Virus record (IMG/VR): IMGVR_UViG_3300032223_002232
Location: 1 to 64,000 of that record
Length of the DNA: 64,000 bases
Source: a virus
Strand: one strand, 5' to 3'
The notes beneath the pieces were generated by a model. That model had not been told where the DNA came from. It saw only the letters and a program-made list of their open reading frames with translations, and did no database searches. The translations under genes were made by a program, and so were the position numbers. Positions 6,779-43,732 of this stretch are shown one piece after another. Positions within the stretch are counted from its first letter, which is position 1. Each line of letters opens with the position of its first letter.

Positions 6779-6943
6779 ATGAGTAGTCCAATCTTAATAT
6801 TAACATCTTATGTGGTCAATAATAAAATCATAAGAGGTAGTTTTCCTATATATGTTTTAGGTATATCACAATGTTGTATAAAAGCTGATGGCACTCAAAA
6901 GGTTACTCCTATAGTTATTAACCCTAATAAAATTCAAAAGTAA
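6779..6943 (+). CDS. small protein, 54 aa, translationally coupled to the VWA protein
   Basis: ATG 6779 opens a 54-codon frame (MSSPILILTSYVVNNKIIRG ... NPNKIQK) whose TAA overlaps the ATG of the next gene as TAATG at 6941-6945. The overlap argues that it is real and that the two proteins are made together. The sequence looks beta-stranded with a Gln-Cys-Cys in the middle. No good Shine-Dalgarno is present; a TAAGTATT, one change from the late element, lies 9 nt upstream (6762-6769). It could be a chaperone-like or capping partner, but nothing in the sequence proves that. Confidence 0.65.
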   Translation: MSSPILILTSYVVNNKIIRGSFPIYVLGISQCCIKADGTQKVTPIVINPNKIQK

Positions 6944-12171: not shown

Positions 12172-15100
12172 ATGCCAGCTTATAACAAAACTTCTTATTA
12201 TAATAATAATCCAATAACGGAAGTATTTGGTTCACAAACTACTCTTTATTATTGTAGGGATAAAATTTCTTTTTGGGGTGATAATTCATATAATCAATTA
12301 TACAATACAAGTAATTTAAATTTAATAAATGCTGCAAGTATAGCAGCTTATGATCACACCGTTGTAGCATTACCTGATGGTGAGGTTGTAGCTTGGGGTA
12401 AAAATGACAAAGGTCAATGTAATGTTCCTAATGGTTTAAGAAATGTTAAAAGTGTATCTGCTGGTAAAGCTTTTACTGTCGCTCTTAAAGAGAATGGAAC
12501 TGTTGTCGCTTGGGGTGATAATAGTTCAGGACAATGTAATATACCAAGTACCGCCACATCTGTTGTAGCTATAGCTGCTGGTGATAACCATGTTTTAGCT
12601 ATAAAAAATGACTTATCTATTATAGCTTGGGGTTCTAATTTCTTTGGTCAAAGTTCAATTCCATCTAATATAGGTAAAATTGCAAATATTGCTGCTGGTG
12701 GAGATAATTCCGCTGTTTTATTAATGGATGGTAGTGTTTATATTTGGGGAAGTAATATAAATGGTAATTTAAATAAACCAGCAAATTTAACTAATGTTTC
12801 TACATTATCAATAAAAAGTAGTCATGTTCTTGCACTTAAAAATGATGGAACTATTGTTGCTTGGGGTAATAACAATTATGGTCAAATTACAATACCAGAT
12901 ACATTAACAGGAAACAAGATAAGAAAAATATCTGCTGGTGTAAATTTTAGTTTAGTTTTAGATTATGCAGGTATTATAACTGCTTGGGGTGATTCAAGTA
13001 AATCACAAACAATTTTACCAAATTTATATCAAGTTGAAAATATTGCAGCTGGTCACAGTCATAGTATTGCATCTTGGTGCTCAATAGTACCGACACCAAC
13101 ACCTACAAAAACGGTTACACCTACACCAATTACACCAACTCCAACTAATACACAAACACTAACTCCTACAGTAACACCAAGTGTAACGCCTTCAATGAGG
13201 GTAACCAATACACCGAGACCTACTATAAATTTAACAAGAACACCAACACCGACACCTACAGCAACACCAATAACAACAGTAAGTGTAACACCAACAAAGA
13301 AACCTCACCCATCACCATTTAGAAAACCTGTTGCTCCTCCACCAGCTAATCAATTTATTCCACCAAAACCAACACAAGAGGCGTTATATTTTCAAAATCC
13401 ATCGCAGACACCAACAAGAACATTAACAAAAACTCCTACTTGTACACCGACATTTACACCTACTGTTACGCCGACTTCAGGTACACCAACGCCTACACCA
13501 ACAGTAACAAAAACAAAACCCACACCCACACCTACACCAACAGTAACGACATCTGTTGGTTCTTATAAGAATTGTGCATATCCAGCATTTAATGGTTTCC
13601 AAAATACTAATAATACATATACAACAATATCATTGTACAAATGGGATAGTTGTATAAGCACTGGTAATCAGAATGATGGTATAATAGATAGTTCAAAATA
13701 TTTTACATCACCCGGTTGGAATGTTGATGGTCATGTAACTATTGTTGCTATAACAAAAACAACAGGAATTGTTCGTGAATCAACTGGAACATTCTTATCA
13801 AAATATCCAATAGGATCAACACAAATAATTTCAAATGTAATAAATTTAAATAACTACCCAAATGTGGTTTCAGATACAAGAAGAAATGGTTCTGGTAACA
13901 TTTACTGTAATAATACTGATGGTAGTATGAATTTTGTATATTTAACAAATGATTATTCTAAAAACTGTGTGCCTTTCGGTGTTAATGCACCAGTTTATGG
14001 TGTATACCATGATGCAGTTGATAACACAATATATGCCGTTGGTTCATTCACAACAGTTAATAGTTTAAATAGAAATCAAGTTGCAAGGTTTAATTATAAT
14101 GGTGTATATGATCAATCATTTGACGTAAATCAAGGTTATAGTGGTACACCGTTTGACTACCCACCAAATGATATAAGAAGAATTAATGATTCATTGTATA
14201 TATCAGCATTGCAAAAATTTGGAACAGTTGGATCTAATGTATTAACATTCAGATCACAAAATGGTTTAGCTAGTAATTTACATAAAGTTGATTTAAATGG
14301 CGTTAGAGATATAAACTTTTTACCATTTACATTTACATTTAACAATAATAATTTTATTGATTATGTAAGTGTACCATCTCAAAATCTTTTAATATTAGTA
14401 AACTCAAGAGCTATTTCATTTAGAAATATAAACAATAATTCACAGTTATCTACAACTATAAATGGAACAGATAGTATACAGGGTATAGTTAAACCTAATG
14501 AAGTAAACCCATCGACTGTTTATATTTTACAAAAGATAAATGGTGGTATTAGTGCAACACAAACACCAAATGCAATTAAAGCTATTAATACAACAACTGC
14601 TTCGATTGATACTAGTATAAACAATTATATAGGTAAGGGTATGATATCAACCGATAATGGTGGATTTGCATTTGGTGCATTATCACCTCAACATGATTTC
14701 ATGGTTCTACAAAGATCTTATAGTGATAATAACATGACACCGGGTTATTGGAATGGTGGAACTGTTAACTCACCTGTTTTATCAAAAATATATACATCTA
14801 ATTTTTCAATACCAAACAATACAATTATATGGAATACATATAATCATATTGTGGGTGCTAATGCTAATAATGGAAATATGTTGATAGATAGTAATGGTAG
14901 AATTTATTTAGTATTACTAAATGAAACTAATTATATTTTCAGTAATATCAATGTTCAACCATATTCAATTATAAGATTATTCCCAGATGGTACATATGAC
15001 GGTTCTTTCAATGTAATGGCTAATTTAAATCCTAGTGGTAAAATCTATAATGCTGCATTGATAAGTGATTTTGAATTAATAGTTTGTGGTGACTTCACAT

Positions 15101-15174
15101 CTTATGCAGGTAATGCATCTAAACAGTATATTGTAAAAATTGACACTAATGGCAATCCTATAAATATAATGTAA
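12172..15174 (+). CDS. RCC1-like propeller / Pro-Thr linker / delta-60-like propeller protein
   Basis: A 1000-residue protein in three parts. Residues about 25-300 contain about six or seven repeats of the form VAWGxNxxGQ followed by IxAGxxHxxAL, the RCC1 family signature that folds as a seven-bladed beta-propeller. Residues about 303-460 are a low-complexity Pro/Thr linker ([10 protein letters not shown] units). Residues about 600-1000 hold repeats such as AVGSFTTVNSLNRNQVARF and LIVCGDFTSYAGNASKQYI, resembling delta-60/DUF5122 beta-propeller repeats. The plan suggests two adhesive heads joined by an extended rod on a virion. RCC1 is best known from eukaryotic regulators but occurs widely as a binding scaffold. 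Confidence 0.75.
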   Translation: MPAYNKTSYYNNNPITEVFGSQTTLYYCRDKISFWGDNSYNQLYNTSNLNLINAASIAAYDHTVVALPDGEVVAWGKNDKGQCNVPNGLRNVKSVSAGKAFTVALKENGTVVAWGDNSSGQCNIPSTATSVVAIAAGDNHVLAIKNDLSIIAWGSNFFGQSSIPSNIGKIANIAAGGDNSAVLLMDGSVYIWGSNINGNLNKPANLTNVSTLSIKSSHVLALKNDGTIVAWGNNNYGQITIPDTLTGNKIRKISAGVNFSLVLDYAGIITAWGDSSKSQTILPNLYQVENIAAGHSHSIASWCSIVPTPTPTKTVTPTPITPTPTNTQTLTPTVTPSVTPSMRVTNTPRPTINLTRTPTPTPTATPITTVSVTPTKKPHPSPFRKPVAPPPANQFIPPKPTQEALYFQNPSQTPTRTLTKTPTCTPTFTPTVTPTSGTPTPTPTVTKTKPTPTPTPTVTTSVGSYKNCAYPAFNGFQNTNNTYTTISLYKWDSCISTGNQNDGIIDSSKYFTSPGWNVDGHVTIVAITKTTGIVRESTGTFLSKYPIGSTQIISNVINLNNYPNVVSDTRRNGSGNIYCNNTDGSMNFVYLTNDYSKNCVPFGVNAPVYGVYHDAVDNTIYAVGSFTTVNSLNRNQVARFNYNGVYDQSFDVNQGYSGTPFDYPPNDIRRINDSLYISALQKFGTVGSNVLTFRSQNGLASNLHKVDLNGVRDINFLPFTFTFNNNNFIDYVSVPSQNLLILVNSRAISFRNINNNSQLSTTINGTDSIQGIVKPNEVNPSTVYILQKINGGISATQTPNAIKAINTTTASIDTSINNYIGKGMISTDNGGFAFGALSPQHDFMVLQRSYSDNNMTPGYWNGGTVNSPVLSKIYTSNFSIPNNTIIWNTYNHIVGANANNGNMLIDSNGRIYLVLLNETNYIFSNINVQPYSIIRLFPDGTYDGSFNVMANLNPSGKIYNAALISDFELIVCGDFTSYAGNASKQYIVKIDTNGNPINIM
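15159..15166 (+). promoter_or_regulatory. late-type promoter element inside upstream gene
   Basis: A perfect TATAAATA (context CCTATAAATATAATG) in the last codons of the RCC1-type gene, 12 nt before the ATG at 15179. Confidence 0.6.
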
Positions 15175-15178
15175 TCAA

Positions 15179-15949
15179 ATGAAAAATTTATATGATTTTT
15201 TTATATTTAGTAATGAAAAGAAAATGTTAAATTTTAGATTTCATGAGTTAAATGAAGTTGTTGACAAATTTATAATAGTAGAATCAGACAAAACATTCAC
15301 AGGTGTTCATAAAGGTTTAAATTTTAATATTGATGATTATTCAAAATTTAAAGATAAAATAATATATAAACCATTCATAGCTGATTTTAGTAGTTATGCT
15401 TGGACTAATGAATATCAACAAAGAAGATATTTAAAATCAGGATATGATGATTTACCAATTGGTAATGATGATTTAATTGTTTTATCTGATGTTGATGAGA
15501 TACCAGATCCATTAGTTTTAAATAGATTTAAAAATGAAAATTTTAAAGGTATTAGAACATTTTATCATGATTTGTATTATAATAACTTTAGAACAAAAAA
15601 GATACATAAATGGTCAGGTTCTTTAGTAATTGATAATGAAACATTTATAAAAAATTATAATTGTGATTTTGAATCTCTCAGAGGTAATAGAGATAATATT
15701 GAAAAAATAGGTGTTGAAAAAAGAGAAGGTGGTTGGCACTTATCTTATTTTGGTGATGTTGATTTTATTATTAATAAAATTAAAAGCTTTTCACACCAAG
15801 AATTTAATACACCAGAACATACAGATCCTGAGAAAATTATGAAATGTATAAATGAGGGTAAAGATCTATTACAACGTAGTGACAATGATACAATTGTATT
15901 AGATACACTTGATCCATATTTACCAAAACATATCAACTTATTAGATTAA
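15179..15949 (+). CDS. GT17-like glycosyltransferase
   Basis: A 256-residue protein matching the family-17 glycosyltransferase plan: N-terminal LYDFFIFSNEKKMLNFRFHE, then FIIVESDKTFTGVHK (near residue 33), WTNEYQQRRYL (near 79), and the DxD-type LSDVDEIPDP (near 101), then HKWSGS (near 142) and GGWHLSYFG (near 185). The eukaryotic reference adds GlcNAc to mannose; bacterial and phage members are uncharacterised. The enzyme is predicted cytosolic with a nucleotide-sugar donor. It closes the plus block and its stop overlaps the opposing gene's stop by 4 nt. It should work with the adjacent glycosylation island. Confidence 0.75.
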   Translation: MKNLYDFFIFSNEKKMLNFRFHELNEVVDKFIIVESDKTFTGVHKGLNFNIDDYSKFKDKIIYKPFIADFSSYAWTNEYQQRRYLKSGYDDLPIGNDDLIVLSDVDEIPDPLVLNRFKNENFKGIRTFYHDLYYNNFRTKKIHKWSGSLVIDNETFIKNYNCDFESLRGNRDNIEKIGVEKREGGWHLSYFGDVDFIINKIKSFSHQEFNTPEHTDPEKIMKCINEGKDLLQRSDNDTIVLDTLDPYLPKHINLLD

Positions 15950-18291
15950 GATTCTTTTCTTTCATCAGCTTTATAGAATAAAAATCTATCGTGTTCTGTT
16001 GGTGTTGCTAACAATATACCGGGATATATATTACCCTTTAATGTTTCTTGATAGATATAAGACATCCATGTTTGTTCAAATGGGTGCGCCCATTTAGTAG
16101 TTAAAAACATCTTCTTATTACCTTCCTTAGATACAACTTGAGGCCAGTTACAATAATAAATTTCACCTGTCGCATAAGGTATACCCTTATATGATTTAAT
16201 ATTATTATATTTTAGGAATGGTTCGTTGTTAGTATCATTGGTTGATTTTCTTGGCTTTTCTGGAAAAAACTTTTCCCTAACATCTTGTGGTATATTATGC
16301 CAAGACCATTGTCTTGTATTATCACCAAATAATTCACTAAAGTTGAATTTTAAAAAGTCAAAGTCTTCATTCCATGCAATATTGAGTATTGTGTTATATA
16401 GATCAGGTATCTTTCTTCTGAATCCATTTTTACAATATTCTTCATTACCAAAATAAAAGAACATATCATCTTCAAAGAACATATGATAATCAAAACCATT
16501 TTCCTCTGCATGTTCTGCTATAAATTGTCTACCACCACAGATGCCAAGATTATCTTTCATCTTTAAATGTGTGAAACCGTAGTATTCACATAGACTTTTA
16601 TACTCACTATAAGTTCCACTGTCAGTTGAATTATCTATTAAAAACTTTTTTGGTTTATCTAAAAAGTTATTATCATATTCTTTAAATGATCTACATAGTT
16701 TTGAGAACTGTTCTGGGAAATTAAACGTCAATACATATAATGCCACATTATCTGTATTATGTGAATTTATTTCACCCCTGCCATTAAGAGTTTTTTCCAT
16801 CTTAGGTTCTAATGATTTATTCTTTAAATTTTCAAAGAATAAACTTAATAACCCATTACCATCAATTTCAAAGTATTGGAATAATTCAGGATACTTGTAA
16901 AGCATTAAAGTGAATAAACTCTCCTCAGTCCCCATATAACCGTTTTTAAGGGAATCTGACATCAAACTATAGTAAACCTCATTAGCCTTTGATATAGAGG
17001 CTTTAGGACCACCAAAAATGCCACCTCTGGCAACTTTGTTAACATTAGCACCAGCATATGAGCACATGGCATTATATTCAAACCCATGAATCTCTTTATC
17101 TGTTTCATATGGAAAACACACGAAACTAAACTTCTTGAAATAATCTTTAATATTATCAATTACATTATCTTTCCAGAAATAACCTTCGTGAACTGTATTA
17201 GTTAATGCGCCATCAATCCAAACTAAATGACTTGAATCAAACGGATCTAGTATTGCCGCATCGTTCAATAAGAACATTTTAGACATAACCAATGGATTAT
17301 ACATCTCAAGCTTCGCTTGTGTGCTTTCGGTTAACCAACCAACTTGGTTGTACCATTCTGGATTATTTCTTATTTTCTGAATATCATTGTAAAATTCATT
17401 ACCCTTAAACCAATCAAGTTCTCTTACTAATATTGATGTATTTGTTAATGATCTATGTTGTAATACAAAATCTTTATATTGTTCTTCAATATAAATTATC
17501 ATATTGCAATCAGTTTTCATTAACTTGGCTAAATTATCAAGATAATGTTCAAATGATCTCTTCCAACCTTCAGTCAATTCGTTTCTTTTAATATCCCATA
17601 TACCAGTAACTATGGTTGTTTCATTTTTCTTTGTCTTAAATGTTTTAATATTTTCAACGGATGCATTTTTTCTATAAAGACCTAATTGATCACATATCTC
17701 AACTACATCATATTCAAGACCTTTCTGTTTAAGAAAATCTGAAATAGCTGCTCTGACTCCGGGTAAGTCGTGCCTATCGTAATCATGAAAGAATATATAA
17801 CCGCCATCTACAACCTTATCAAATACTTTGACTAGACTATCGTAGATTGAATCATAAAAATCACCATCTAAAAATGCAAATGATATTTTTTCTGGTATTT
17901 TATATTCTGGTATATCTTTGAACCAATCTTTATGTATTATAGGTAAAGGTAAATTATTTTGTTTAAAATTTGAAATTAAAACATCTTCTGTTGTTTTTAA
18001 AGTCCCAGCCCTCCAGCCACTATCCTTTTCCCAATTTGATAATTCTGGTAAACCATCAAATGAATCATAAACATACAACTTTTTATTTGATCCAGTTTCA
18101 GTTATAGTCTTCATTAGATATTTGCTGGATTCGCCAACATAACATCCAAGTTCTACTACATCACCCTCAATATTATTATCAATTACATCTAGTAATGATC
18201 TCACAAGAACTTCAACCTGTGATCCACATATAATAGAAGAATCTACTCTTATATTGTTAAAATTTAAAATTTCGTTTAACTTAGTATTCAT
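15946..18291 (-). CDS. three-domain fusion: TylF-like methyltransferase, HtrL/WlaTC-like and GT2-like glycosyltransferases
   Basis: A 781-residue protein with three enzyme-like domains. Residues 1-215 resemble TylF/MycF sugar O-methyltransferases: VVELGCYVGESSKYL (SAM-binding), VYDSFDGLPE, FAFLDGDFYDS and FFHDYDRHDLPGV. Residues about 220-500 resemble the HtrL/WlaTC family: ETTIVTGIWDI, MIIYIEEQY, MYNPLVMSKMFLL, SHLVWIDGALTN and GTEESLFTLM. Residues about 510-781 look like a GT-A glycosyltransferase: LYVLTFNFPEQFSKL, FLIDNSTD, NLGICGGRQF and the acidic FFEDDMFFY. Such a fusion could add and cap sugars in one pass. It is the last gene of the island and meets the GT17-like gene tail to tail. 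Confidence 0.7.
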   Translation of the reverse strand: MNTKLNEILNFNNIRVDSSIICGSQVEVLVRSLLDVIDNNIEGDVVELGCYVGESSKYLMKTITETGSNKKLYVYDSFDGLPELSNWEKDSGWRAGTLKTTEDVLISNFKQNNLPLPIIHKDWFKDIPEYKIPEKISFAFLDGDFYDSIYDSLVKVFDKVVDGGYIFFHDYDRHDLPGVRAAISDFLKQKGLEYDVVEICDQLGLYRKNASVENIKTFKTKKNETTIVTGIWDIKRNELTEGWKRSFEHYLDNLAKLMKTDCNMIIYIEEQYKDFVLQHRSLTNTSILVRELDWFKGNEFYNDIQKIRNNPEWYNQVGWLTESTQAKLEMYNPLVMSKMFLLNDAAILDPFDSSHLVWIDGALTNTVHEGYFWKDNVIDNIKDYFKKFSFVCFPYETDKEIHGFEYNAMCSYAGANVNKVARGGIFGGPKASISKANEVYYSLMSDSLKNGYMGTEESLFTLMLYKYPELFQYFEIDGNGLLSLFFENLKNKSLEPKMEKTLNGRGEINSHNTDNVALYVLTFNFPEQFSKLCRSFKEYDNNFLDKPKKFLIDNSTDSGTYSEYKSLCEYYGFTHLKMKDNLGICGGRQFIAEHAEENGFDYHMFFEDDMFFYFGNEEYCKNGFRRKIPDLYNTILNIAWNEDFDFLKFNFSELFGDNTRQWSWHNIPQDVREKFFPEKPRKSTNDTNNEPFLKYNNIKSYKGIPYATGEIYYCNWPQVVSKEGNKKMFLTTKWAHPFEQTWMSYIYQETLKGNIYPGILLATPTEHDRFLFYKADERKES

Positions 18292-18294
18292 ATA

Positions 18295-19827
18295 TTACAG
18301 ATAACCTTTAGCATAAAATTCATTGTTATTATCATCTACATTTTCAGATCTATAAATACCACAACCAGAAACCTCATTTGGTATAACGTGCAATATTGGA
18401 AATGAATGAACTCTTGATTCAAAATTATCTTCTTTGTAATAATTCATAACAATTTTTGATATGTTATATTTTCCTAAATATGATGAAATTACAATATCGT
18501 CACTCCATGATTTATTAACAAAATCTGTAAAGAAATCATCATTAAAGAACTTTCTCTTATAAGATGCTGATTTATAACCTTCTATTATTTTAACTCTTGT
18601 ATCTTTAGACATGGTAGCACATAAATGACAAGATCCGTCTAATGCACCAATGCCAGCAAATCCCAAAGCTGTATCGGGGTAAATTGTTTGCTTCTTTAAG
18701 TGATACTCAATAAATCCATCTTCGTATATTAAATCATCATCAACAGTTATTATAGTTGTCTCTGGATCAGAGATTCTTTTAATAGTGGGAGCAATTTTTG
18801 TAATTGAACCGTAATCATGACATCTAAAAATTTTAAGTTTATCGTTTTCTTTAACGTAATCGTTTAACCAATCTGGTATTACATACTCTTCACTAGTTTT
18901 ATGATTTATATATGGTATATTAAAATGTATTTCGTAATTAGGGTAACTAAGACTCAATAAGTTCTCTATAACAGGTTTAACACCATGACCATCTCTTTCA
19001 TCACTTAATCTATTTGGGGTTGTGGATAAAGATAATATGACATTCGGAAATTCGGTTAGTTCAAAAGACATATCAATGTCTTTACTATCATCTTTATATT
19101 CAAGTTCTTTTTTAAAATCATATTCTTCGTTATTAGTTTCTACATTAGTAGTGTTGATGAATAATGTTTGGCGACCATTGAATAATGGTATGTAGCCTTC
19201 ATTTATCAGATAAGGTGAAAGTAAATTATCTTTACCACCACCAACAGTATTAAAATCTGTATCATCAATTAATATTAAATGTATATCAGAAAGCTTTTCC
19301 CTTGCAGCTTGAAATGCTTCTAAATGCTTTTCTGCATATTCTGGTGTTCCCACATCCCATCCATCCAGATATAGTATATCAATCTTGCCATCAAAGTCTT
19401 TTAAAAATTGAATACCATCCATTGGTATATTAATATTCAAATTATTAGGCTTTTCTTTACCAATTGATTTATAATAATTTAAAAGATTGCCTACACAAGC
19501 TTCGTTAACATCTACGGTATGAACATCAAATCCACATTCGGTAAAAAATAATGTACTATGACCATCACAACAACAAGCAGGTGACACTAAAGCATTTCTT
19601 TCGCTATCTAAAAAATAATCAATACATTCTTTTTTAAGTTCAAATCTATTTGTACCAATTTCTACAAGTGTTTTGAGATTCAACATCTTTGCAATCTCAA
19701 CCATTTTCCTAATATAGGGTGCTGGTTTTGATCTCTTATTGATATGATCATCAAGTGAAAGATTATCATCATACCAATATTTTTTATCAATTCTAAAATC
19801 AGTTAAAAGTTTATATATTCGTTTCAT
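18295..19827 (-). CDS. methyltransferase-like / glycosyltransferase-like fusion
   Basis: A 510-residue protein. ATG 19825-19827 (MKRIYKLLTDFRI) is chosen: it follows the upstream TAA by one base, whereas the longer frame would overlap the previous gene. Residues about 50-230 look like a class I SAM-methyltransferase fold (TLVEIGTNRFELKKE, DVHTVDVNEACVGN, ILYLDGWDVGTPEY, LILIDDTDFNTVGGG). Residues about 265-510 resemble a GT-A glycosyltransferase (PNVILSLSTTPNRL, TIITVDDDLIYEDGF with a DDD metal motif, NKSWSDDIVIS). A small Cys cluster (PACCCDG) lies in the first domain. Second multi-domain protein of the island. Confidence 0.65.
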   Translation of the reverse strand: MKRIYKLLTDFRIDKKYWYDDNLSLDDHINKRSKPAPYIRKMVEIAKMLNLKTLVEIGTNRFELKKECIDYFLDSERNALVSPACCCDGHSTLFFTECGFDVHTVDVNEACVGNLLNYYKSIGKEKPNNLNINIPMDGIQFLKDFDGKIDILYLDGWDVGTPEYAEKHLEAFQAAREKLSDIHLILIDDTDFNTVGGGKDNLLSPYLINEGYIPLFNGRQTLFINTTNVETNNEEYDFKKELEYKDDSKDIDMSFELTEFPNVILSLSTTPNRLSDERDGHGVKPVIENLLSLSYPNYEIHFNIPYINHKTSEEYVIPDWLNDYVKENDKLKIFRCHDYGSITKIAPTIKRISDPETTIITVDDDLIYEDGFIEYHLKKQTIYPDTALGFAGIGALDGSCHLCATMSKDTRVKIIEGYKSASYKRKFFNDDFFTDFVNKSWSDDIVISSYLGKYNISKIVMNYYKEDNFESRVHSFPILHVIPNEVSGCGIYRSENVDDNNNEFYAKGYL

Positions 19828-19828
19828 T

Positions 19829-20620
19829 TTAACTTTCCGTTGGATGTCCGATTTTATGACCATTTGCTGTAATAGCTTTACCTAAAATGAAGTGATTCCA
19901 ACCTATATCATGCGGTTTATAACCTGCTACAAAGCCAGATACACCAATTTCAAATCCTTCAGCCCATGTACCATAACAATAACCTTTAGCTATAAGATAA
20001 TCATGAAACCATTTAAATTGATCGTAAAACTTCTTTAACTTTTCACCTGTCTGTAGAAAAACTAACAAATATTCTGCTGGTAATCTCGCATCATCCCAAT
20101 CATGGTTTTCTATATCCAAATCATAATTGAATATTTTATGCCAAAAAATACCATGCTCTTTATTATTCTTAGTTTTATAATCATCCAAGAATCCACGCCA
20201 TGTATATGTCATTCTAGGTCCAAGGAAATCAATACCATCATCAAGCATGTTTTTAAAATATGTTTGAACTTCATCTTCGTCCCACCAATCCAATGAGTTA
20301 TCACAATCAGTCCATATTACATAAGCATCATCCTTATCTAATAATTGTCTTAAACAAAGATACCTCATATTAAAATTAAAATCAGAAATATAACTATCTT
20401 TTGAGTTAAATGGGATTCTAATTTGCAACGAATCTCTGTCAATTTCATCAATCAAAATTCTTTCATTTTCTCCAAAAACGTCAGTTATTGATTTCTTACA
20501 ATCTGTTGTTATTGCAAAATAATGATTTGTTTTTTCTAAAACTTCTTTTATAAGTTTACAAGCATAATCTTTAGTGTAATTTTCACCTAAACTTAATGTT
20601 GTAAAATAGATTTTTTTCAT
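19829..20620 (-). CDS. putative glycosyltransferase (GT-A like)
   Basis: A 263-residue protein beginning IYFTTLSLGENYTKDY, followed by a strand-helix pattern and an acidic motif VIWTDCDNSLDWWDED (near residue 101) that would serve as the metal/nucleotide-sugar DxD site. Later blocks (ARLPAEYLLVFLQTGEKL, YGTWAEGFEIGVSGF) look like acceptor-side segments of nucleotide-diphospho-sugar transferases. A late-type promoter element lies 4 nt before its ATG, so it can head a transcript for the genes down to 15946. Family assignment is by overall pattern only. Confidence 0.6.
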   Translation of the reverse strand: MKKIYFTTLSLGENYTKDYACKLIKEVLEKTNHYFAITTDCKKSITDVFGENERILIDEIDRDSLQIRIPFNSKDSYISDFNFNMRYLCLRQLLDKDDAYVIWTDCDNSLDWWDEDEVQTYFKNMLDDGIDFLGPRMTYTWRGFLDDYKTKNNKEHGIFWHKIFNYDLDIENHDWDDARLPAEYLLVFLQTGEKLKKFYDQFKWFHDYLIAKGYCYGTWAEGFEIGVSGFVAGYKPHDIGWNHFILGKAITANGHKIGHPTES

Positions 20621-20624
20621 ATGA

Positions 20625-20632
20625 TATATTTA
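20625..20632 (-). promoter_or_regulatory. late-type promoter element
   Basis: TAAATATA in the context TTCTAAATATATCATATG, 4 nt before the ATG at 20620, overlapping the 3' end of the upstream glycosyltransferase gene. Confidence 0.55.
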
Positions 20633-22171
20633 GAAAGATAGCTTATTTATCAAATCTAAATCTTTAAATATTTTGAATAAAAGATTACAATTTGCATTTA
20701 TAGAACCATTTTCTATATACCAATTATAACCGTTATTTGATACAAAGTCCAATAGTTCGTCATTTTTTATTATTTCATCATATTTGTTTTTTATGATATT
20801 CATTTGTAATATTGGATCTAGATCAATTTCAAACCCAATGTAATGGTAATCTTGTATAAGACTGTTATAAAATTTTTGATTAAGTATCGGTCTAAATAAT
20901 ACAGAACCAGCTGCTAAAATTTCTATATCTCTATTGCAAATCTCACCAGCACCATTTAAAGATAAGCAAATTTTACTTTCTGTCAACTCTTTATAATAAT
21001 TTGAATTTGGAAATACTTTCTTATCTGTAATATTAAAAACTCCTAATTGCGAAAGGTCTAATCTTTGCCCATATAAATAACCTCGGAATATCAATTCTTC
21101 ATTTGTTTTTTCACTGAATGGTAATCTGTTTTTAGCTAAATCATCAAATTCTGACGAATAAGCCAAATATGAAAATGGTATAGTTTCCATATCATTATAG
21201 ACACCAGCGGATGTTATTATACCTACGAGGTTTTCTGTATCCCAACCTAAACCTTTATATAGTAATTCCTCGGCTCTATCCCAATAAGAAATTGCTACAT
21301 ACTTCTTTGTATGTTTATTTCTAATCGTCATTATATGAGGTGAATGTATTCCAGCAGGTTCATGTACATTAATAGGTGTTATGTACTTTACGTTATGTTC
21401 TTTAGAGAAAATCTTATAGAATTCATCAAAAACAATGGTAACAGACCATTTAGTACCATGTGGTTTTTGGTATGTTATTTCATAATCGTGATTTTCGGGT
21501 GGTTTTGGTTTGGCTTTTATACTTTTTAGATTATGGATTATATCCATTAACTTAGCATCTTTAATCCTGTCATTATCAACTTTACATCTATAATGATAAT
21601 GTTCTGAATCAATTAATGTGGGGTCTTCTAAATGATGATCACCACATTCAAATCTAAATCCTTCTGATAAACTTATATTAATGTTATTTAAAATATCCGC
21701 AACGGCAACATCATCGGGTAAATTGAAATTCCATAATGTTTCATTATCTACTATATATTCTACTAAATCTCTACTAAGTGTATATCCACACCCTGACCCA
21801 AAATGAATATCTTCATGTCTTTGTCCTAACATGGCACTATAGTAACCTTTAAGTGGTTTATCTTTTAAGAAGTTTATTAAATTCTCAATCTTTACATATG
21901 ATGATGAATTAGTCCTAAAAACAAAATCAAAATCAAAATTTTCTTTAATGTATTTAAACATCAAATATGTTTTATTATTAATTTGACTCCACCCCTCACC
22001 AGTTGGGAAAAATAAACGATCTCCTTCTGATATCTTATCTAAACTCCCATAATAAAATACTACATCAATTCCAGCATTTTTAGCATCTATAAGCCATGTT
22101 TCTCTAATTTTATTTTCTAAAGTTATATAAGGCTCTTGATCTAACGATAAAACCGAAATTAAAATCTTCAT
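20630..22171 (-). CDS. two-domain glycosyltransferase (GT31-like plus exostosin/CAP10-like)
   Basis: A 513-residue protein. Residues 1-215 resemble galactosyltransferase-type (GT31-like) domains: ISVLSLDQEPYITLENKIRE with the classic IRETW, FDFVFRTNSSSYVKIENL in place of a DDDxxV site, SGCGYTLSRDLVEYI, and a late DDVAVADIL. Residues about 225-513 resemble exostosin/GT1-like transferases: FRGYLYGQRLDLSQLG, SKICLSLNGAGEICNRDIE and LAAGSVLFRP. The nucleotide-sugar DxD of the first half seems altered to RTNSS, so that domain may have another donor or be inactive. It starts 9 nt after the previous stop. Confidence 0.65.
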   Translation of the reverse strand: MKILISVLSLDQEPYITLENKIRETWLIDAKNAGIDVVFYYGSLDKISEGDRLFFPTGEGWSQINNKTYLMFKYIKENFDFDFVFRTNSSSYVKIENLINFLKDKPLKGYYSAMLGQRHEDIHFGSGCGYTLSRDLVEYIVDNETLWNFNLPDDVAVADILNNINISLSEGFRFECGDHHLEDPTLIDSEHYHYRCKVDNDRIKDAKLMDIIHNLKSIKAKPKPPENHDYEITYQKPHGTKWSVTIVFDEFYKIFSKEHNVKYITPINVHEPAGIHSPHIMTIRNKHTKKYVAISYWDRAEELLYKGLGWDTENLVGIITSAGVYNDMETIPFSYLAYSSEFDDLAKNRLPFSEKTNEELIFRGYLYGQRLDLSQLGVFNITDKKVFPNSNYYKELTESKICLSLNGAGEICNRDIEILAAGSVLFRPILNQKFYNSLIQDYHYIGFEIDLDPILQMNIIKNKYDEIIKNDELLDFVSNNGYNWYIENGSINANCNLLFKIFKDLDLINKLSF

Positions 22172-22180
22172 AACTAAAAC

Positions 22181-23065
22181 TTACATCATTATGATGTTTT
22201 TAATGTCGTTTGCTAATTTATTTTTAGTTTCTAAATACCAAGTAATAACTTTATTCTGTAATGCTGAATAATCTGAATCACTCATTTCACTGTAGTTTTT
22301 TATTTCACTCCAAGATTCAACTATAGGTATAGGATGACCCTCACCCCAAATCTCATTTATATATTTTTCGCCAACTTCGGGATAGTTTCTTAAAATTGGT
22401 ATTGCTCCCCATTCTAAACATTCCATAAGTCTAAATGAATCTGGATGATTAAACCCCTTTGGGCATGGAGCGAATCTAGTTTTTTTGTAAATCTCAATAC
22501 ATTCAGATGTTGATAAAGCTGTTGTGCAGTTCCAACCATGTGTTTTATGTAAGAATATTTTTTCTGGATTTAAAGCCATCATATGTATGAAAACATCATT
22601 TCTATCAGCTTTAGGGCATCCTATAAATGAAAAATCATATTTCTTATTATAAGAATTTGAATAATCATTGTTATTATTTAAATAACCACTCTTTACACCT
22701 AGTGGTAAAGTTTTAACATTAGTTTGTGTTATTAATGGATCATAATAATTTCTAAAAACATATTTAGCTTTAGAATAATAACTACAATCATGATTCAAAT
22801 CTTCGTTTGAATATTGTAAAAGAAAGAAATTATATCCCCTCTTTTCATATTCATTTAAATAGTTAAGAAAGTCATTTGATTGCCCACGATTATTATTTGA
22901 ATATATAATCAGTGCATTATCTAATATTGTTGAATATGTTTTATTATCAAATATCCTATTTTGATTAAATTCTTTAAATAAGATATCTACAGTATAATCA
23001 AACTCAAATGTTGTTTGGTCACCATCTAAGGTTTGCCATATCATGTTTAAAACTGGTTTATCCAT
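22181..23065 (-). CDS. exostosin-like glycosyltransferase
   Basis: A 294-residue protein with the C-terminal signature of exostosin (GT47-like) enzymes: KTRFAPCPKGFNHPDSFRL, then MECLEWGAIPILRN and a Trp-Ser-Glu-Ile block (near residues 195-255). The N-terminal half contains KYDFSFIGCPKADRNDVF and LPLGVKSGYL, fitting a GT-B fold. The exostosin domain transfers uronic acid, GlcNAc or galactose units in eukaryotes; phage substrates are unknown. It begins one base after the previous stop (TAAAATG junction), so translation is probably coupled with the GT60-like gene. Confidence 0.7.
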   Translation of the reverse strand: MDKPVLNMIWQTLDGDQTTFEFDYTVDILFKEFNQNRIFDNKTYSTILDNALIIYSNNNRGQSNDFLNYLNEYEKRGYNFFLLQYSNEDLNHDCSYYSKAKYVFRNYYDPLITQTNVKTLPLGVKSGYLNNNNDYSNSYNKKYDFSFIGCPKADRNDVFIHMMALNPEKIFLHKTHGWNCTTALSTSECIEIYKKTRFAPCPKGFNHPDSFRLMECLEWGAIPILRNYPEVGEKYINEIWGEGHPIPIVESWSEIKNYSEMSDSDYSALQNKVITWYLETKNKLANDIKNIIMM

Positions 23066-23066
23066 T

Positions 23067-24320
23067 TTAAAACTTAGGTAGTTTTCCAGTTAATCTTTCA
23101 CACCAACCTTTTGATTTAGAATGAGGCCATACAACCCAATAATCAGGTTTAACTTCTGTTTGGAATTCTAGGAATATCTTACAGTATTTGTCTGGATCAT
23201 TGAAATAATTTTTAATTTCATCTTCAGTTGAATCTTTTCTATATAATGTATCATTATTTTCCGAATGCATAGCAACAGCCCAAAAATCATAATCTTTTTC
23301 TGGTACGCTATCATAGCTAATATCAATACAATGTTTAAATATCTTCAAGAATGATTTATCATATTCATCGGGATCGTTATATGTAGGATTTGGTGCTAAA
23401 TTATTATCTAATGTATATCGTTGAACACTTCTATCTTTAAAACGTAAACCAGAATATGCTTCATATTCTTGTAATGTTCTTTTCTTACCAAACCCATAAA
23501 TTCCAAAATCTGTAGCTGGTGTTTCAGCATCCATACCAAAAAGTTTTCTGTTTTTAGCATGACACTTATTGTTTCTATCACACCATTTTTTGTCATCATC
23601 CCACTGTTTAGTTCTACCCTTTCTGGTATATTCATGCCAAGCCACAACTTTGTGTGGATGGAATAAATCATAACCCCATGTATAAGCTCTAGCTGCTATA
23701 GATATTTCCTCACCGTGAAAATAATATTCAGGATCATGTGGAACTTCTTTACAGAATTTACCTAAAGTGAAACAAAAATGAGCAGAGTAAAACCTAGCTG
23801 GAATTGGTTGAGTTCTTTCTTTAAAATCATCAATACTTGCTGGTAAAAAGAAAACAGCACCTTCTGGTATAAAACGATCAAAATTCATTTTCCAAGGAAT
23901 TTGAACTCTTGCATCTGGATCGTTATCTGGATCAAAACTAGGAATATAACCTGTAAGTAAAGGCTTTTTATGTCCTTTATCTTTAAGTTGTTTAACCATG
24001 TTGATCAACTCTTCATCCCAATTTTCAATAAATCTGTGATGACTATCAAGTTGCAAAGTATATTCCTCATCATCATACTTTTGTTGAATAGTATTTCTAG
24101 CCCAACATGCACCTTTTGATTCTTGATAAGGTACATCTATAATTTTAAATCTTGGGTCGTCTTTATATTGATCTAAATTTTCATTTTCATCATGTTGCCA
24201 ACAAATACAAAAAACCAAGTTTTCAGGTTTTTTAGCTTTATCTATACAATCTTTAACTGTGATTGGTAACTGTGGATCTCTATAAGATGCTATTTGTATA
24301 AATATTTTATTTTTTTTCAT
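23067..24320 (-). CDS. GT60-like GlcNAc-transferase (Skp1 GnT family)
   Basis: A 417-residue protein with the pattern of the GlcNAc-transferase family that includes Skp1 hydroxyproline GlcNAc-transferase: IFIQIASYRDPQLPITVKDC at the N-terminus, CICWQHDEN, GACWARNTIQQ, then LQLDSHHRFIENWDEEL with the D-x-H metal motif (near residue 93), FYSAHFCFTLGKF, HGEEISIAARAYTWGYDLFHP and VVAWHEYTRKGR. Family members attach GlcNAc directly to a protein, which fits the Pro/Thr-rich virion proteins encoded nearby. It overlaps the upstream gene by ATGA. Confidence 0.75.
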   Translation of the reverse strand: MKKNKIFIQIASYRDPQLPITVKDCIDKAKKPENLVFCICWQHDENENLDQYKDDPRFKIIDVPYQESKGACWARNTIQQKYDDEEYTLQLDSHHRFIENWDEELINMVKQLKDKGHKKPLLTGYIPSFDPDNDPDARVQIPWKMNFDRFIPEGAVFFLPASIDDFKERTQPIPARFYSAHFCFTLGKFCKEVPHDPEYYFHGEEISIAARAYTWGYDLFHPHKVVAWHEYTRKGRTKQWDDDKKWCDRNNKCHAKNRKLFGMDAETPATDFGIYGFGKKRTLQEYEAYSGLRFKDRSVQRYTLDNNLAPNPTYNDPDEYDKSFLKIFKHCIDISYDSVPEKDYDFWAVAMHSENNDTLYRKDSTEDEIKNYFNDPDKYCKIFLEFQTEVKPDYWVVWPHSKSKGWCERLTGKLPKF

Positions 24321-24778
24321 AATTCAATCATTGATAATAAATAATTTGCTTTATTGATTCTGGAAATAATATCTTCCTTAGTATTGTTTATGCCAGACTT
24401 TACGTTATTTACATAGTTATTAAACTCTAATGAGGTTAACATATCTTTGATTATGTTTGCAAGATTATAATAATAGTCAATAATAACTTGATTGTTTTGA
24501 TACATCTCAATATGTTCTAATTGAACTCCACTAATATTAAATGATGGGAATGGTACACTATACTCTTTAGATGTACCAATAATCTCTTCTTGAAGCTTAT
24601 CAAATAAATCTGTTAAATCATCATATAGATCACCTAAAATTACATGAACATTATGATCTAATACATACCAATGTAACATTTTTATTGTTGATGTTGCTTT
24701 ATTTAAAATGATACCAAATACTCTTGTTGGATCAAGAGAACTTTGTATCGCTGTTGTTGTTATGACTTCTATTTCCAT
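24317..24778 (-). CDS. DUF5856 / Dps-like helical protein
   Basis: A 153-residue all-helical protein with KMLHWYVLDHNVHVILGDLY (near residue 34) followed by DDLTDLFDKLQEEIIG. This HW...H..LGxLYDDL pattern resembles the DUF5856 family of T4-like phages, related in plan to ferritin-like/Dps proteins, where His, Asp and Glu could bind metal. Its role in the virus is not known. It sits at the head of the glycosyltransferase operon and overlaps the GT60-like gene by ATGA, so it is co-transcribed with it. Confidence 0.65.
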   Translation of the reverse strand: MEIEVITTTAIQSSLDPTRVFGIILNKATSTIKMLHWYVLDHNVHVILGDLYDDLTDLFDKLQEEIIGTSKEYSVPFPSFNISGVQLEHIEMYQNNQVIIDYYYNLANIIKDMLTSLEFNNYVNNVKSGINNTKEDIISRINKANYLLSMIEL

Positions 24779-24781
24779 ATT

Positions 24782-25261
24782 TTAAATTTTTTTATAATAT
24801 TCGGTTCTAACTATATACTCACCTAATGTTATTTCATTACTGCTTAAAAACATGTGATTACTTTTTCTATCTATTGTAGGTTTAGATTCAGTGATTATGT
24901 TATTTTCAAATTCCTTGTTTTCTTTTGTATCTGGTAATGGGTAATCTGGTACATCTTCAAATTTCGAAACCGTTACATATCTATTTTCATAATTTAATGA
25001 TGCTTTAAAACCACACTTTATATAAAAGTTTTTAAGGTTCTCTAAATATGAAATTTCATCTTTAAAGAAGATTTTCCAAAATTTAATTGGAAATAAAATA
25101 TTTAATGCTTGTTTTCTTTTAGAACATTGTGTACATGGTTTATCTTTGCCAGTTAAGAGTATAACTAGCCATGATAATGATTTTGAATGAATAATTGATG
25201 CAAATAAATCACCAATTCCAACGGCATATCTTATATTTAAATCTGGGTTTTTATGATTCAT
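24782..25261 (-). CDS. conserved phage protein with CxxC-RK-LN-FP motif
   Basis: A 159-residue protein. It has the sequence IGDLFASIIHSKSLSW, LLTGKDKPCTQCSKRKQALN and NILFP in the first 55 residues. Many phages encode a small protein with a GxGD...C..CxxRK..LN..FP motif of this kind near structural genes; its function is not established. The second half is polar, beta-rich and ends SSNEITLGEYIVRTEYYKKI. Its start overlaps the upstream gene by 11 nt. The two Cys may bind zinc. Confidence 0.6.
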   Translation of the reverse strand: MNHKNPDLNIRYAVGIGDLFASIIHSKSLSWLVILLTGKDKPCTQCSKRKQALNILFPIKFWKIFFKDEISYLENLKNFYIKCGFKASLNYENRYVTVSKFEDVPDYPLPDTKENKEFENNIITESKPTIDRKSNHMFLSSNEITLGEYIVRTEYYKKI

Positions 25262-25649
25262 TTTGCTCTAAATAAAATTTACGATGTTTTTCATATAAGT
25301 CAACAGCGTGAATTATGGTTTTTGCCATTTTATCAAATTCGGGTAAAAGTGAACTAGTCTTATATGATAAAAGATATAATTGTTTTATTACATTTATAAC
25401 TTGTAAATCTATTGGATAATCTTTATAAATAGTCTTAAACAAAGTATCTTGTAATTCCTTTTCAGTTACAGTATATGGCTTTTCATTTAAGCTAACCATT
25501 TGACCATCATAATCACCTTCCCAACGCCATTTGGTAAGGTCAGATTTATCTTGTGGTATTTCTTTTTTTAAAATGGATTTATTTAAATGTTCTGGAATGT
25601 CATCACTGAAACCAATAAATGATTTTTGTAGATTAAATAATGCAAACAT
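25251..25649 (-). CDS. hypothetical protein, 132 aa
   Basis: A 132-residue protein with a Trp-rich block (KWRWEGDYDGQMVSL) and mostly helical C-terminal half (QVINVIKQLYLLSYKTSSLL and AKTIIHAVDLYEKHRKFYL). It overlaps the next gene by 11 nt. A TATAAT lies 6 nt before the ATG but no -35 is convincing. It sits between the fibre genes and the CxxC protein gene, which hints at a virion-assembly or structural role. Not recognised. Confidence 0.55.
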   Translation of the reverse strand: MFALFNLQKSFIGFSDDIPEHLNKSILKKEIPQDKSDLTKWRWEGDYDGQMVSLNEKPYTVTEKELQDTLFKTIYKDYPIDLQVINVIKQLYLLSYKTSSLLPEFDKMAKTIIHAVDLYEKHRKFYLEQNES

Positions 25650-25668
25650 GAAACCATTATAGCATAGT

Positions 25669-27120
25669 TTAATGACTTGTATAGTATGAAACTATAACAA
25701 TCCCACTTGCACCCTGACCACCAGAAGAATTAGATTCACCACCTCCACCACCACCGCCACCTGTATTTGCAGCACCAAGACTTCCGGGGAAGAATCCAAT
25801 ACCACCTCTTGCTCCACCACCTTGACCACCTACAACTAATTCTAAATCACCTATAGCACCGGCGCCACCGCCGCCACCTGAGAAATATATTCCATTTGGA
25901 TAGTTTATAACGTCACTGTATAAGTAACCATCTTGACCTTTTGATGGAGGGAAGAATCCTCTACCATTACCACCATGACCGCCATCTTGACCACCACCAT
26001 TATCACCACCCTGAGACGCATTTCCATAAGTTGGATTTGCACCAATTCCACCATATCCACCCAAAGCTGTTAATGCACCAAAAACACTACTTCCACCTTG
26101 GAAACCTGTGCTTCCAGCTGCTCCACCATTACCGCCTTGTCCAACCTTTACATTATATGATGTATTTGGTGAAACTGTGTATGTTTGTAAGATTATACCA
26201 CCTCCACCACCGCCGCCACCATAAGTGGTTCCAGTATACCCAGCACCACCACCGCCGCCGCCACCGACCAATAAAACTAAAACTTTATTTACATCTATTG
26301 GAATTGTAATTGAAGAATTTGTTGTAAAAACAAAAGATTTCAATGTTTTAGTTGGTAATAATGAAAGTGGTGATGGTGCTATTGTTACAGGTTTTGTTGT
26401 TGGTGAACCTATATTAAGACTTTCACTATAAGTTCCTGCATTGTAACCTATGTAATTCCATACGTTATTTTGTTTAAAATATCTTAAATTGACACCTTGT
26501 GTAAAATATACATTATCTCTATAAAATGTTACATCCATATTTCTAACTCTATAACCAAATACATTTGGAGTTGCATTGAAAGTTATTAAATGATTTGGAT
26601 TTGTTGGATTTGGACTTACATTATATAAGAAAAAATTAACATTAACAATAGTACCATCAATAAAACTAGTTGCTGGGAAATTGGAATTAAGATATATATT
26701 AGCTAATGGTTTTAATCTAGTGTTAATGGTTTTAATTAAATTAACTTGATTAACAGTAGATAATGCTGGGGCATTAATAGTATCAGTCGTAGGGTTTAAA
26801 ATTGCACCATTAATTGGGTATTGTATTGAAAACTCTTGTTTATTCCAATATGAACTAAGAATCTTAACAGTTGTAGCAGCCTCTGACATCTTATATACTC
26901 TATCATCATTATAACTTGATGCTACTTGTGTGAATGTCTGTATATACGATGTTAATGACTGAAACATCGAATCTATATTATTATAATCTAAGAAAAACTG
27001 ACTTGATAAATTACAAATATTTGTATCTAATACCAATGCATTGTAATTATGCTTTCCAGCAGAATCACCTACAGCATCTGTACTACTAATTGCTAATGTT
27101 GGTATTGTACAATCACTCAT
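25669..27120 (-). CDS. tail fibre with glycine-rich tip
   Basis: A 483-residue protein. The N-terminal half (residues 1-225) has a helix-rich start and the phrase KILSSYWNKQEFSIQYP, shared in pattern with the two upstream genes (ILSS/TLSS, W, YP), so the three are paralogous. From about residue 285 the sequence becomes extremely glycine-rich (blocks of eight Gly, GGNGG, GGYGG), like the polyglycine-sandwich tips of phage adhesins. It ends GASGIVIVSYYTSH, a typical finish of glycine-rich phage domains. Likely a receptor-binding tip; specificity would sit in the loops between Gly blocks. It follows the previous gene by one base (TAAAATG). Confidence 0.7.
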   Translation of the reverse strand: MSDCTIPTLAISSTDAVGDSAGKHNYNALVLDTNICNLSSQFFLDYNNIDSMFQSLTSYIQTFTQVASSYNDDRVYKMSEAATTVKILSSYWNKQEFSIQYPINGAILNPTTDTINAPALSTVNQVNLIKTINTRLKPLANIYLNSNFPATSFIDGTIVNVNFFLYNVSPNPTNPNHLITFNATPNVFGYRVRNMDVTFYRDNVYFTQGVNLRYFKQNNVWNYIGYNAGTYSESLNIGSPTTKPVTIAPSPLSLLPTKTLKSFVFTTNSSITIPIDVNKVLVLLVGGGGGGGAGYTGTTYGGGGGGGGIILQTYTVSPNTSYNVKVGQGGNGGAAGSTGFQGGSSVFGALTALGGYGGIGANPTYGNASQGGDNGGGQDGGHGGNGRGFFPPSKGQDGYLYSDVINYPNGIYFSGGGGGAGAIGDLELVVGGQGGGARGGIGFFPGSLGAANTGGGGGGGGESNSSGGQGASGIVIVSYYTSH

Positions 27121-27121
27121 T

Positions 27122-27931
27122 TTATGTTATAAACTTATCAAAAACCCAATCACAATCAATAACTTTAAAACTTATGGATTTAATGAAAGAGCTTTCTATT
27201 CTATCTGTAAAGTTACAAGTAACCTTCGCTTCAATTTTACCATATGCTTGTGTTGTATGCGCTGAACCATCCACAATAGGTGTTTTGTCAGTATAAGCTC
27301 TATAATATGGGCTTTGATAATAACAATCACTGGTTGCTGATTTTGAGCAGCTTCTTGAGTATCCACAACTATGTCCACCATTACTACAAGCTACATAGTT
27401 ATTAGCCCATATATCACTGCAATATGCGTAAATTGTAGTATTGTGTGTATAACACAACGTATAATCGTATAGATCATAATATGCATTATTGATTTTGTAC
27501 TCTATTCTATATGTATGAGCATTTACTATGAATTGTTGATTTTCAACGTAATTAACAGATCCATCATCATTTCTAATTGGAAAATTTAATTGTAACCAAT
27601 TTTTAATTACTGCAATTGAAGAATCAGTAAATGGTATTGATATTAATTTTGGATACCATATTGTGTATGGTTGTAACCACTTTGCACTATTTGTTTCAAC
27701 TGTTGTTTGGAAACTTTGCCATTCTGATGAAAGAGTATGTATTAAATTTAAAGTTTCATCCATCCTATCAACATATTGTATAAAGAAATTATAAACATTT
27801 TGATATGTGTTATTATAAGAATTTTGAACATCTATTATCCAATTAGATAGATTTGAATAATTCTGATTTATTAAATCCAAACTATCTCCGATATTCTGAC
27901 TTGAACTGATTTTTGTAATAGTATAACTCAT
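27122..27931 (-). CDS. fibre paralogue with Cys-rich tip, 269 aa
   Basis: ATG 27929-27931 overlaps the upstream stop (ATGA) and is chosen over a TTG 15 nt earlier. The first 130 residues share the plan of the neighbouring fibre genes (INQNYSNLSNWI, IHTLSSEWQSF, TIWYPKLI, LQLNFP). The C-terminal half carries a Cys-, Ser- and Gly-rich segment (CYTHNTTIYAYCSD, ACSNGGHSCGYSRSCSK, SDCYYQ) that may be bound by metal or disulphides. Probably a virion protein with a swapped tip domain. No enzyme motif. Confidence 0.6.
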   Translation of the reverse strand: MSYTITKISSSQNIGDSLDLINQNYSNLSNWIIDVQNSYNNTYQNVYNFFIQYVDRMDETLNLIHTLSSEWQSFQTTVETNSAKWLQPYTIWYPKLISIPFTDSSIAVIKNWLQLNFPIRNDDGSVNYVENQQFIVNAHTYRIEYKINNAYYDLYDYTLCYTHNTTIYAYCSDIWANNYVACSNGGHSCGYSRSCSKSATSDCYYQSPYYRAYTDKTPIVDGSAHTTQAYGKIEAKVTCNFTDRIESSFIKSISFKVIDCDWVFDKFIT

Positions 27932-28797
27932 AATATTATATTCCAAAGTGCTCCATCAATTTCATTATAAGTTTTAATATATTTATAAGAATATATTCTA
28001 GCAAAACATGTATCAACTGCGTTTGGTGGATGAACGTGTGCTGGTGTATCACCCTGACCTACAATATCATATAAACCAACAGTAAGTGTTCTGCCACCAC
28101 CATCAGCTATACATGTATATGTTGAACTATCTTTAGTTGTTGATGTCGGTCCACCACAATGTGTATATGCATTATCACATGCACCATAACCAGCGGCTCC
28201 TCCGTGATGGTTACAACCAGCAGATCTATAAGATCCTTGGTTACCACTTCCACACCCATCACATGAAACTGATGTACTACCACCATTAGGTGCACAATTT
28301 TCTTCCCAAGATCTACTAAAACTAAATTGAAAAGGAATATCTTGATTGGTGCTTACATATAAATTAACTATTTGATAATCTGGAAAATTATCAGGTGGAA
28401 ATGTGGATGTTAACCAAGGGTTTAATATTTGTGAATCTTTTTGTAAATCTGTTAAACCACTCCATTGTGATATGGAATAAATTAAAGGAAAATATAGAGA
28501 AAATTGTTTACACCAGTTACCACTTATTGTTTGAACGCAACTATAAGCCTGATTAACTGTAGAATTTATATTTTGAACATTAAATATAGTAGAAAGCATT
28601 AATCCACTAGCTTGTATGAAATCACTATATATTGAATCCCAAAGTGATGCATTTCTTGTCAAATCTATTAAATTTGAACTCAATGTCATTAAATTTCCAT
28701 TTATAACATCCAAAGTATTACCTGCACATAAATTTTCATCTATAAAATAGATGTTTGAGCAATTAGGATTTGTTTTTAATAATTCAAAAGTAGCCAT
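27928..28797 (-). CDS. fibre paralogue with Cys/His/Gly-rich tip, 289 aa
   Basis: A 289-residue protein and the first of three consecutive paralogues. It starts ELLKTNPNCSNIYFIDEN, has CVQTISGNWCKQFSLYFPLI in the same position as the LSS-W-YP block of its neighbours, then a loop-rich domain with many Cys, Gly and His (CDGCGSGNQG, AGCNHHGGAAGYGACDN, HCGGP). The closing part (IVGQGDTPAHVHPPNA) resembles phage fibre-tip phrases. It overlaps the next gene by ATGA and follows the LamG gene by one base. Virion role inferred from context. Confidence 0.6.
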   Translation of the reverse strand: MATFELLKTNPNCSNIYFIDENLCAGNTLDVINGNLMTLSSNLIDLTRNASLWDSIYSDFIQASGLMLSTIFNVQNINSTVNQAYSCVQTISGNWCKQFSLYFPLIYSISQWSGLTDLQKDSQILNPWLTSTFPPDNFPDYQIVNLYVSTNQDIPFQFSFSRSWEENCAPNGGSTSVSCDGCGSGNQGSYRSAGCNHHGGAAGYGACDNAYTHCGGPTSTTKDSSTYTCIADGGGRTLTVGLYDIVGQGDTPAHVHPPNAVDTCFARIYSYKYIKTYNEIDGALWNIIL

Positions 28798-28798
28798 A

Positions 28799-32263: not shown

Positions 32264-32269
32264 CTTTAT

Positions 32270-32277
32270 AATATTTA
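32270..32277 (-). promoter_or_regulatory. late-type promoter element
   Basis: TAAATATT in the context CTAAATATTATAAAGATG, 6 nt before the ATG at 32263. It lies in the 48-nt gap after the protease gene. No hairpin terminator was seen in the gap. Confidence 0.6.
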
Positions 32278-32311
32278 GAATAAAATACCTGTTTTTGGGG
32301 CAAAATATACG

Positions 32312-43668: not shown

Positions 43669-43732
43669 AATCAACTCCCTTAACTTGGCTCATTTTGCCA
43701 TTTTAAAAATATTTTTAATAAAAATGCATTCA

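Follow-up and report, generated by a model that had tools for sequence, protein, structure and literature searches.

To our knowledge, glycosylation of phage particle proteins is known in a few cases only. Mycobacteriophages carry glycans at the C-termini of capsid and tail-tube proteins, the proposed work of glycosyltransferases of their own (Freeman et al. 2023, as cited in PMC12619734), and Chlorella virus PBCV-1, a eukaryotic virus, supplies its own cytoplasmic enzymes for glycosylation of its major capsid protein (as cited in PMC5852040). For Xanthomonas phage XacN1, a proteomic analysis detected at least two glycoproteins, which the text of the paper does not name and which its authors suggest to be made by the phage's own transferases (PMC5852040). 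An enzymatic precedent lies in the polypeptide alpha-GlcNAc-transferases of family GT60, including Skp1 Gnt1 and the Trypanosoma cruzi mucin initiator (PMC6939170), the latter assayed on KPPTTTTTTTTKPP (PMC3769586); these enzymes prefer Thr- or Pro-type peptide acceptors (PMC3769586, PMC6939170). A survey of GT-A enzymes found DxH in place of DxD in GT27 and GT60, whose common activity is the O-glycosylation of polypeptide Ser/Thr (PMC7185993).

The virus studied here is a large uncultivated myophage. The window, i.e., the whole stretch of DNA that we analysed, is the first 64 kb of its incomplete, 169,763-bp record (G000), which beyond the window encodes tail sheath, terminase, DNA polymerase, and ribonucleotide reductase. 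Like the mycobacteriophages, it encodes glycosyltransferases proposed to act on its own virion proteins, and like PBCV-1, it would supply its own cytoplasmic glycosylation enzymes, but the proposed targets are Pro/Thr stalks and the proposed initiator is a GT60 enzyme. The features concerned are the following (ORFs are called by their lower coordinate):

12172 to 15174, plus strand: RCC1 propeller, Pro/Thr stalk, and DUF5122 propeller; proposed acceptor
13045 to 13590, plus strand: Pro/Thr tract of ORF 12172 (178 aa with 53 T and 12 S)
15179 to 15949, plus strand: GT17-like glycosyltransferase (PF04724 Glyco_transf_17, 1e-29)
15946 to 18291, minus strand: TylF methyltransferase (Pfam, 4e-26), HtrL/YibB transferase (HtrL_YibB, 4e-18), and a GT2/TAGT-like domain
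18295 to 19863, minus strand: methyltransferase-like N-terminal half (weak profiles only, TehB and phrog_24975) and GT2-like C-terminal half with a DDD motif
19829 to 20620, minus strand: predicted GT-A-fold glycosyltransferase (AlphaFold and Foldseek; invariant DxD)
20630 to 22171, minus strand: GT31-like domain (Galactosyl_T, PF01762, 1e-6) and a further C-terminal half
22181 to 23065, minus strand: RXYLT1/exostosin-like transferase (RXYLT1_C, PF24785, 2e-7)
23067 to 24320, minus strand: GT60 enzyme (PF11397 (GlcNAc), 4e-69), proposed initiator on stalk Thr/Ser
24317 to 35161, minus strand: structural and accessory genes that precede GT60 and leave no more than 48 bp between them; tail-fibre profiles for ORF 25669
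36067 to 43674, minus strand: ORF of 2,535 aa that includes a giant Pro/Thr tract; proposed acceptor
37375 to 41172, minus strand: Pro/Thr tract of ORF 36067 (1,266 aa with 573 T, 82 S, 226 P, and 17 charged residues)
48766 to 50490, minus strand: tail-fibre-like ORF in which a 107-aa Pro/Thr tract is followed by a glycine-rich domain
50430 to 52130, minus strand: ORF with a 76-aa Pro/Thr tract

All seven ORFs of the glycosylation island described in the original prediction are in place and consecutive between 15179 and 24320. Its tally of eight to ten glycosyltransferase- or methyltransferase-like domains holds as well, with about nine transferase-like domains (including the second half of ORF 20630, which carries no family assignment) and two methyltransferase domains. 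Five of the ORFs have Pfam matches above curated cut-offs (GT17, TylF plus HtrL_YibB, GT31, RXYLT1_C, and GT60). ORF 18295 has no significant Pfam match, and its two halves are separate ORFs at one other locus (L027). ORF 19829, which has no profile match, is a GT-A glycosyltransferase by its predicted fold: Foldseek matches its AlphaFold model (pTM 0.83) to GT-A glycosyltransferases of the PDB (probability 1.00, TM about 0.4 to 0.5), and its DxD motif does not vary among 10 homologs. A megablast search of phages with the island gave no match.

The C-terminal domain of ORF 15946 is weakly TAGT/GT2-like with an EDD motif invariant in 18 homologs, and a PDB sequence search with the HtrL-GT2 profile returned nothing relevant. 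The weak matches of this domain to TAGT (2e-4) and to a beta-glucosyl-HMC-alpha-glucosyltransferase (1.5e-5) would fit transferases that glycosylate modified bases of phage DNA, an explanation that we consider very improbable given that no thymidylate-synthase-type enzyme was found in the (incomplete) record by a search with positive controls and that both the GT60 fold and the association with stalks described below point to protein. A search of the same incomplete record for Tet/JBP enzymes gave no match, with its controls silent too.

The lead gene of the island is ORF 23067, which scores 234 bits against the GT60 profile PF11397 (curated cut-off 21 bits) and whose DSH triplet, a DxH in place of DxD as is typical of GT60, is invariant in 55 of 55 aligned homologs. 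Its AlphaFold model (pLDDT 92.6) shows a predicted GT-A fold near GT27, again as expected for GT60: the first 37 PDB matches in Foldseek are all polypeptide GalNAc-transferases (GT27), at TM 0.42 to 0.54, values that speak for a related fold and not for close homology. The enzyme resembles the T. cruzi mucin initiator and Skp1 Gnt1 in profile family, motif, and predicted fold and has Thr/Pro-rich candidate acceptors at hand, but unlike them it is phage-encoded and would work in the bacterial cytoplasm, from within a putative virion gene operon. Sequence searches for GT60 returned nothing relevant from the PDB and, at pattern sensitivity, no close relative in bacterial and archaeal genome contigs; we found no paper on a phage GT60 glycosyltransferase in the literature searched. 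Hydroxyproline was considered as an alternative GT60 acceptor and rejected as unlikely because a 2OG-Fe(II) oxygenase (PF13640), a possible prolyl hydroxylase, was matched in a single record out of 17 searched and not in G000.

The Pro/Thr tracts look like stalks since that of ORF 12172 joins two beta-propeller-type regions and that of ORF 48766 precedes a glycine-rich domain. A PTxTPTxTP-coding pattern has 63 matches in the window versus none in shuffles, and the tracts foreseen in ORFs 12172, 36067, 48766, and 50430 are real; of these four, ORF 12172 alone adjoins the island, with ORF 36067 about 12 kb off and ORFs 48766 and 50430 at least 24 kb off. Threonine, serine, or proline make up 881 of the 1,266 residues of the ORF 36067 tract (655 Thr/Ser), which is long, rich in Pro/Thr/Ser, and low in charge in the manner of mucin-like domains. 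Two more Pro/Thr ORFs lie beyond the window at 85072 and 161292 of the record.

Island and virion genes are tightly coupled. The GT17 gene begins 4 bp past Pro/Thr gene 12172, ORF 23067 overlaps its preceding gene by 4 bp, and throughout the minus-strand genes between 35161 and 15946, neighbours either overlap or leave no more than 48 bp between them; placement of phage-encoded glycosyltransferases with virion genes is also a hallmark of phage systems that glycosylate virion proteins. From this layout, we infer that the island is expressed late and together with the virion genes, and a promoter scan was uninformative (137 found versus 123 expected).

The main rival explanation is that the island remodels host surface glycans such as LPS or capsule, excluding superinfection or aiding release, and that the stalks are unrelated flexible linkers. 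HtrL/YibB, GT25, and GT10 are families with a role in LPS loci as well, and bacterial relatives of HtrL/YibB and GT25 often serve LPS; the first of these families is present in the island, and the other two occur in islands of relatives. Seen against the coupling to virion genes, the modelled initiator fold, which is that of polypeptide transferases, and the lack of any membrane-like segment in the seven island proteins, we nevertheless regard this explanation as unlikely. Gtr-type serotype conversion combines a membrane flippase with a membrane glucosyltransferase, and no 19-residue window of the seven proteins exceeds a KD value of 1.39, so there is no flippase or Gtr-type enzyme among them.

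Several further genes of the record are of note. One of the virion-region ORFs (window 32312 to 35161; 949 aa) has a subtilase (S8) domain, and a sulfotransferase-family ORF is found within the structural region (record 77566 to 78381; L073:13566-14381), with sulfotransferases present also in islands of relatives. The replication region holds a second glycosylation-type cluster on the plus strand (record 105119 to 111112; L075:3119-9112) with GT2-like, DUF5672, Gly_transf_sug-like, and methyltransferase ORFs. A 331-aa adenylosuccinate-synthetase relative (record 166493 to 167485; L078:7493-8485), conserved in G001, G003, and G044, matches the PurZ model weakly (96 of 300 bits) and might point to altered purine metabolism.

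Relatives of ORF 23067 were found at 68 viral loci, which allowed us to ask what travels with the enzyme. A homolog of ORF 15946, mostly of its HtrL-GT2 part, is present at 57 of these loci; homologs of ORFs 20630, 19829, and 18295 occur at 7, 13, and 8, and the GT17 and RXYLT1 genes have no homolog at any. In the relatives' islands, the changing genes between encode GT_PLOD, GT10, GT25, GT34, and GT7 enzymes, FkbM and CmcI methyltransferases, carbamoyl- and sulfotransferases, and UDP-galactopyranose mutase. This conservation of initiator and HtrL-GT2 gene with turnover of the genes between them suggests that related phages would have the acceptor step in common and vary the glycan.

Pro/Thr ORFs lie within 10 kb at 48 of the 68 loci, in half of these with the nearest one within about 110 bp of the island, and 71 such ORFs are on the island's strand versus 27 on the opposite one. 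With their tracts masked, the Pro/Thr proteins fall into 25 unrelated families, and after dereplication at 75% GT60 identity, 13 of 19 clusters retain a nearby Pro/Thr ORF. Of the 49 viral records that carry GT60 and span 40 kb or more, 40 have the PTxTPTxTP-coding pattern, versus 0 of 29 unrelated, neutral large viral records (Fisher p = 8e-14, which is optimistic because these incomplete and related records are not independent, and the neutral set is not clade-matched). When the ORFs of four long records are ranked by their distance from GT60, the nearest Pro/Thr ORF falls among the closest 0.7, 2.8, 5.8, and 21.6%. The original prediction had proposed such a comparison across related genomes, and its outcome favours glycosylation of the phage's own stalks, with GT60 islands far from equally common in phages that lack Pro/Thr stalks.

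The association is one-way. Among 23 viral records picked by the pattern and carrying an in-frame tract, GT60 is present in 9 and absent from 14, and no glycosyltransferase is among the commonest neighbour families around GT60-less tracts, as in the neutral set. We reject the idea that Pro/Thr tracts and glycosyltransferases strictly depend on each other since tracts occur without GT60 or glycosyltransferase neighbours. Many unrelated viral contigs (L123, L138, L156, L163, L191, and others) have long Pro/Thr tracts and no glycosyltransferase cluster nearby. The existence of tracts without islands fits remodelling of host glycans, against which stand the strength of the one-way association and the glycoproteins reported in XacN1.

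Relatives of the source phage were picked by terminase, polymerase, or structural gene; a scan with the product of structural gene 28799 yielded three relatives only and served as a syntenic comparison. Neither GT60 nor the Pro/Thr pattern is present in G007 (163 kb) and G044 (107 kb), both are present in G043, and in the fragments G001, G003, and G004 the pattern occurs and GT60 does not. At L070, homologs of ORFs 6943 and 24317 adjoin with no Pro/Thr gene or island between them, and in G043, a Pro/Thr ORF directly follows the ORF 6943 homolog, with GT60 3.8 kb away. ORF 6943 itself (window 6943 to 11541) is large, has a von Willebrand factor A-like domain, and is kept at 42 to 48% in L070 and G043. 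Judged by eye, two ORFs (L383:8977-9525 and L380:10067-10963), of which one neighbours GT60 in G043 and the other is in G001, have N-termini similar to dTDP-sugar epimerase and reductase enzymes.

In a set of 50,697 phage records, GT60 of this type and, likewise, the full HtrL-GT2 gene are found only in the cultivated jumbo phages XacN1, RAS14, and CM1. XacN1 encodes homologs of both (ORF334, 48% to GT60, and ORF330, 42% to HtrL-GT2) and shares with the source phage a Pro/Thr tail on a virion-type protein, but it belongs to another lineage and, where the source phage has GT31, RXYLT1, and GT17, encodes a carbamoyltransferase and GT9. In all three phages, this tail is on a protein of 3.1 to 3.3k residues whose gene adjoins baseplate wedge genes and whose orthologs bear annotations as virion structural proteins, backed in PA5oct by ESI-MS/MS. 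The tail is absent from 6 of 6 sampled orthologs of GT60-less jumbo phages (PA5oct, GAP32, RaK2, CBB, SCTP-2, and Atu_ph07, the last cut at its end).

These orthologs also bear on the idea that the enzymes glycosylate other virion proteins such as capsid or tail tube and that co-occurrence with stalks reflects shared residence in the structural regions of large phages. The mycobacteriophage sites named above (Freeman 2023, cited in PMC12619734), the location of islands in structural regions, and the GT60 records without a tract would agree with it, but every second nearby Pro/Thr ORF lies no more than about 110 bp from an island, XacN1-type orthologs gain a Pro/Thr tail only together with GT60, and GT60 relatives prefer Thr- or Pro-type peptides. 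We thus find this idea somewhat less probable still than remodelling of host glycans, and, as with DNA modification, place it behind that main rival.

Glycosylation by the phage of its own fibre stalks is the best supported reading, as originally proposed, given the predicted fold and motif of the initiator and the tight coupling to virion genes, to which co-occurrence with Pro/Thr tracts, the three cultivated jumbo phages, and the reported XacN1 glycoproteins add further support. Based on gene anatomy, predicted fold, motif, gene coupling, and co-occurrence, we consider it likely that the island encodes a cytoplasmic, late-expressed O-glycosylation pathway for the Pro/Thr virion stalks, for which we infer substrate, sugar identity, and order of steps. 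The GT60 enzyme 23067 would begin glycans on Thr (and Ser) of long stalks such as those of ORFs 12172 and 36067 in the manner of mucin-type initiating transferases, the HtrL-GT2 fusion and the GT31-, RXYLT1-, GT17-, and GT2-like transferases would extend them, and the two methyltransferase domains would cap them. The benefit might be stalks that are stiff, protease-resistant, or antigenically variable.

Because the pairing of glycosyltransferase island and stalk recurs in dozens of other phages, the phages that have it probably sugar-coat their own particles. To a broader reading, in which widespread large phages perform mucin-type O-glycosylation of their own in the bacterial cytoplasm with a GT60 initiator and an exchangeable extender and cap cassette, we give about even chances; its glycosyl-, O-methyl-, carbamoyl-, and sulfotransferases would vary the sugar coat between phages. 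If true, this would be a genetically defined virion glycosylation system that can be tested in the cultivated phages XacN1, RAS14, and CM1, and it would give a reason for the Pro/Thr tracts beside glycosyltransferase islands in many large phages. It would also mean that a mucin-like coat has arisen outside eukaryotes and would offer a modular set of enzymes, for which simple peptides may suffice as substrates.
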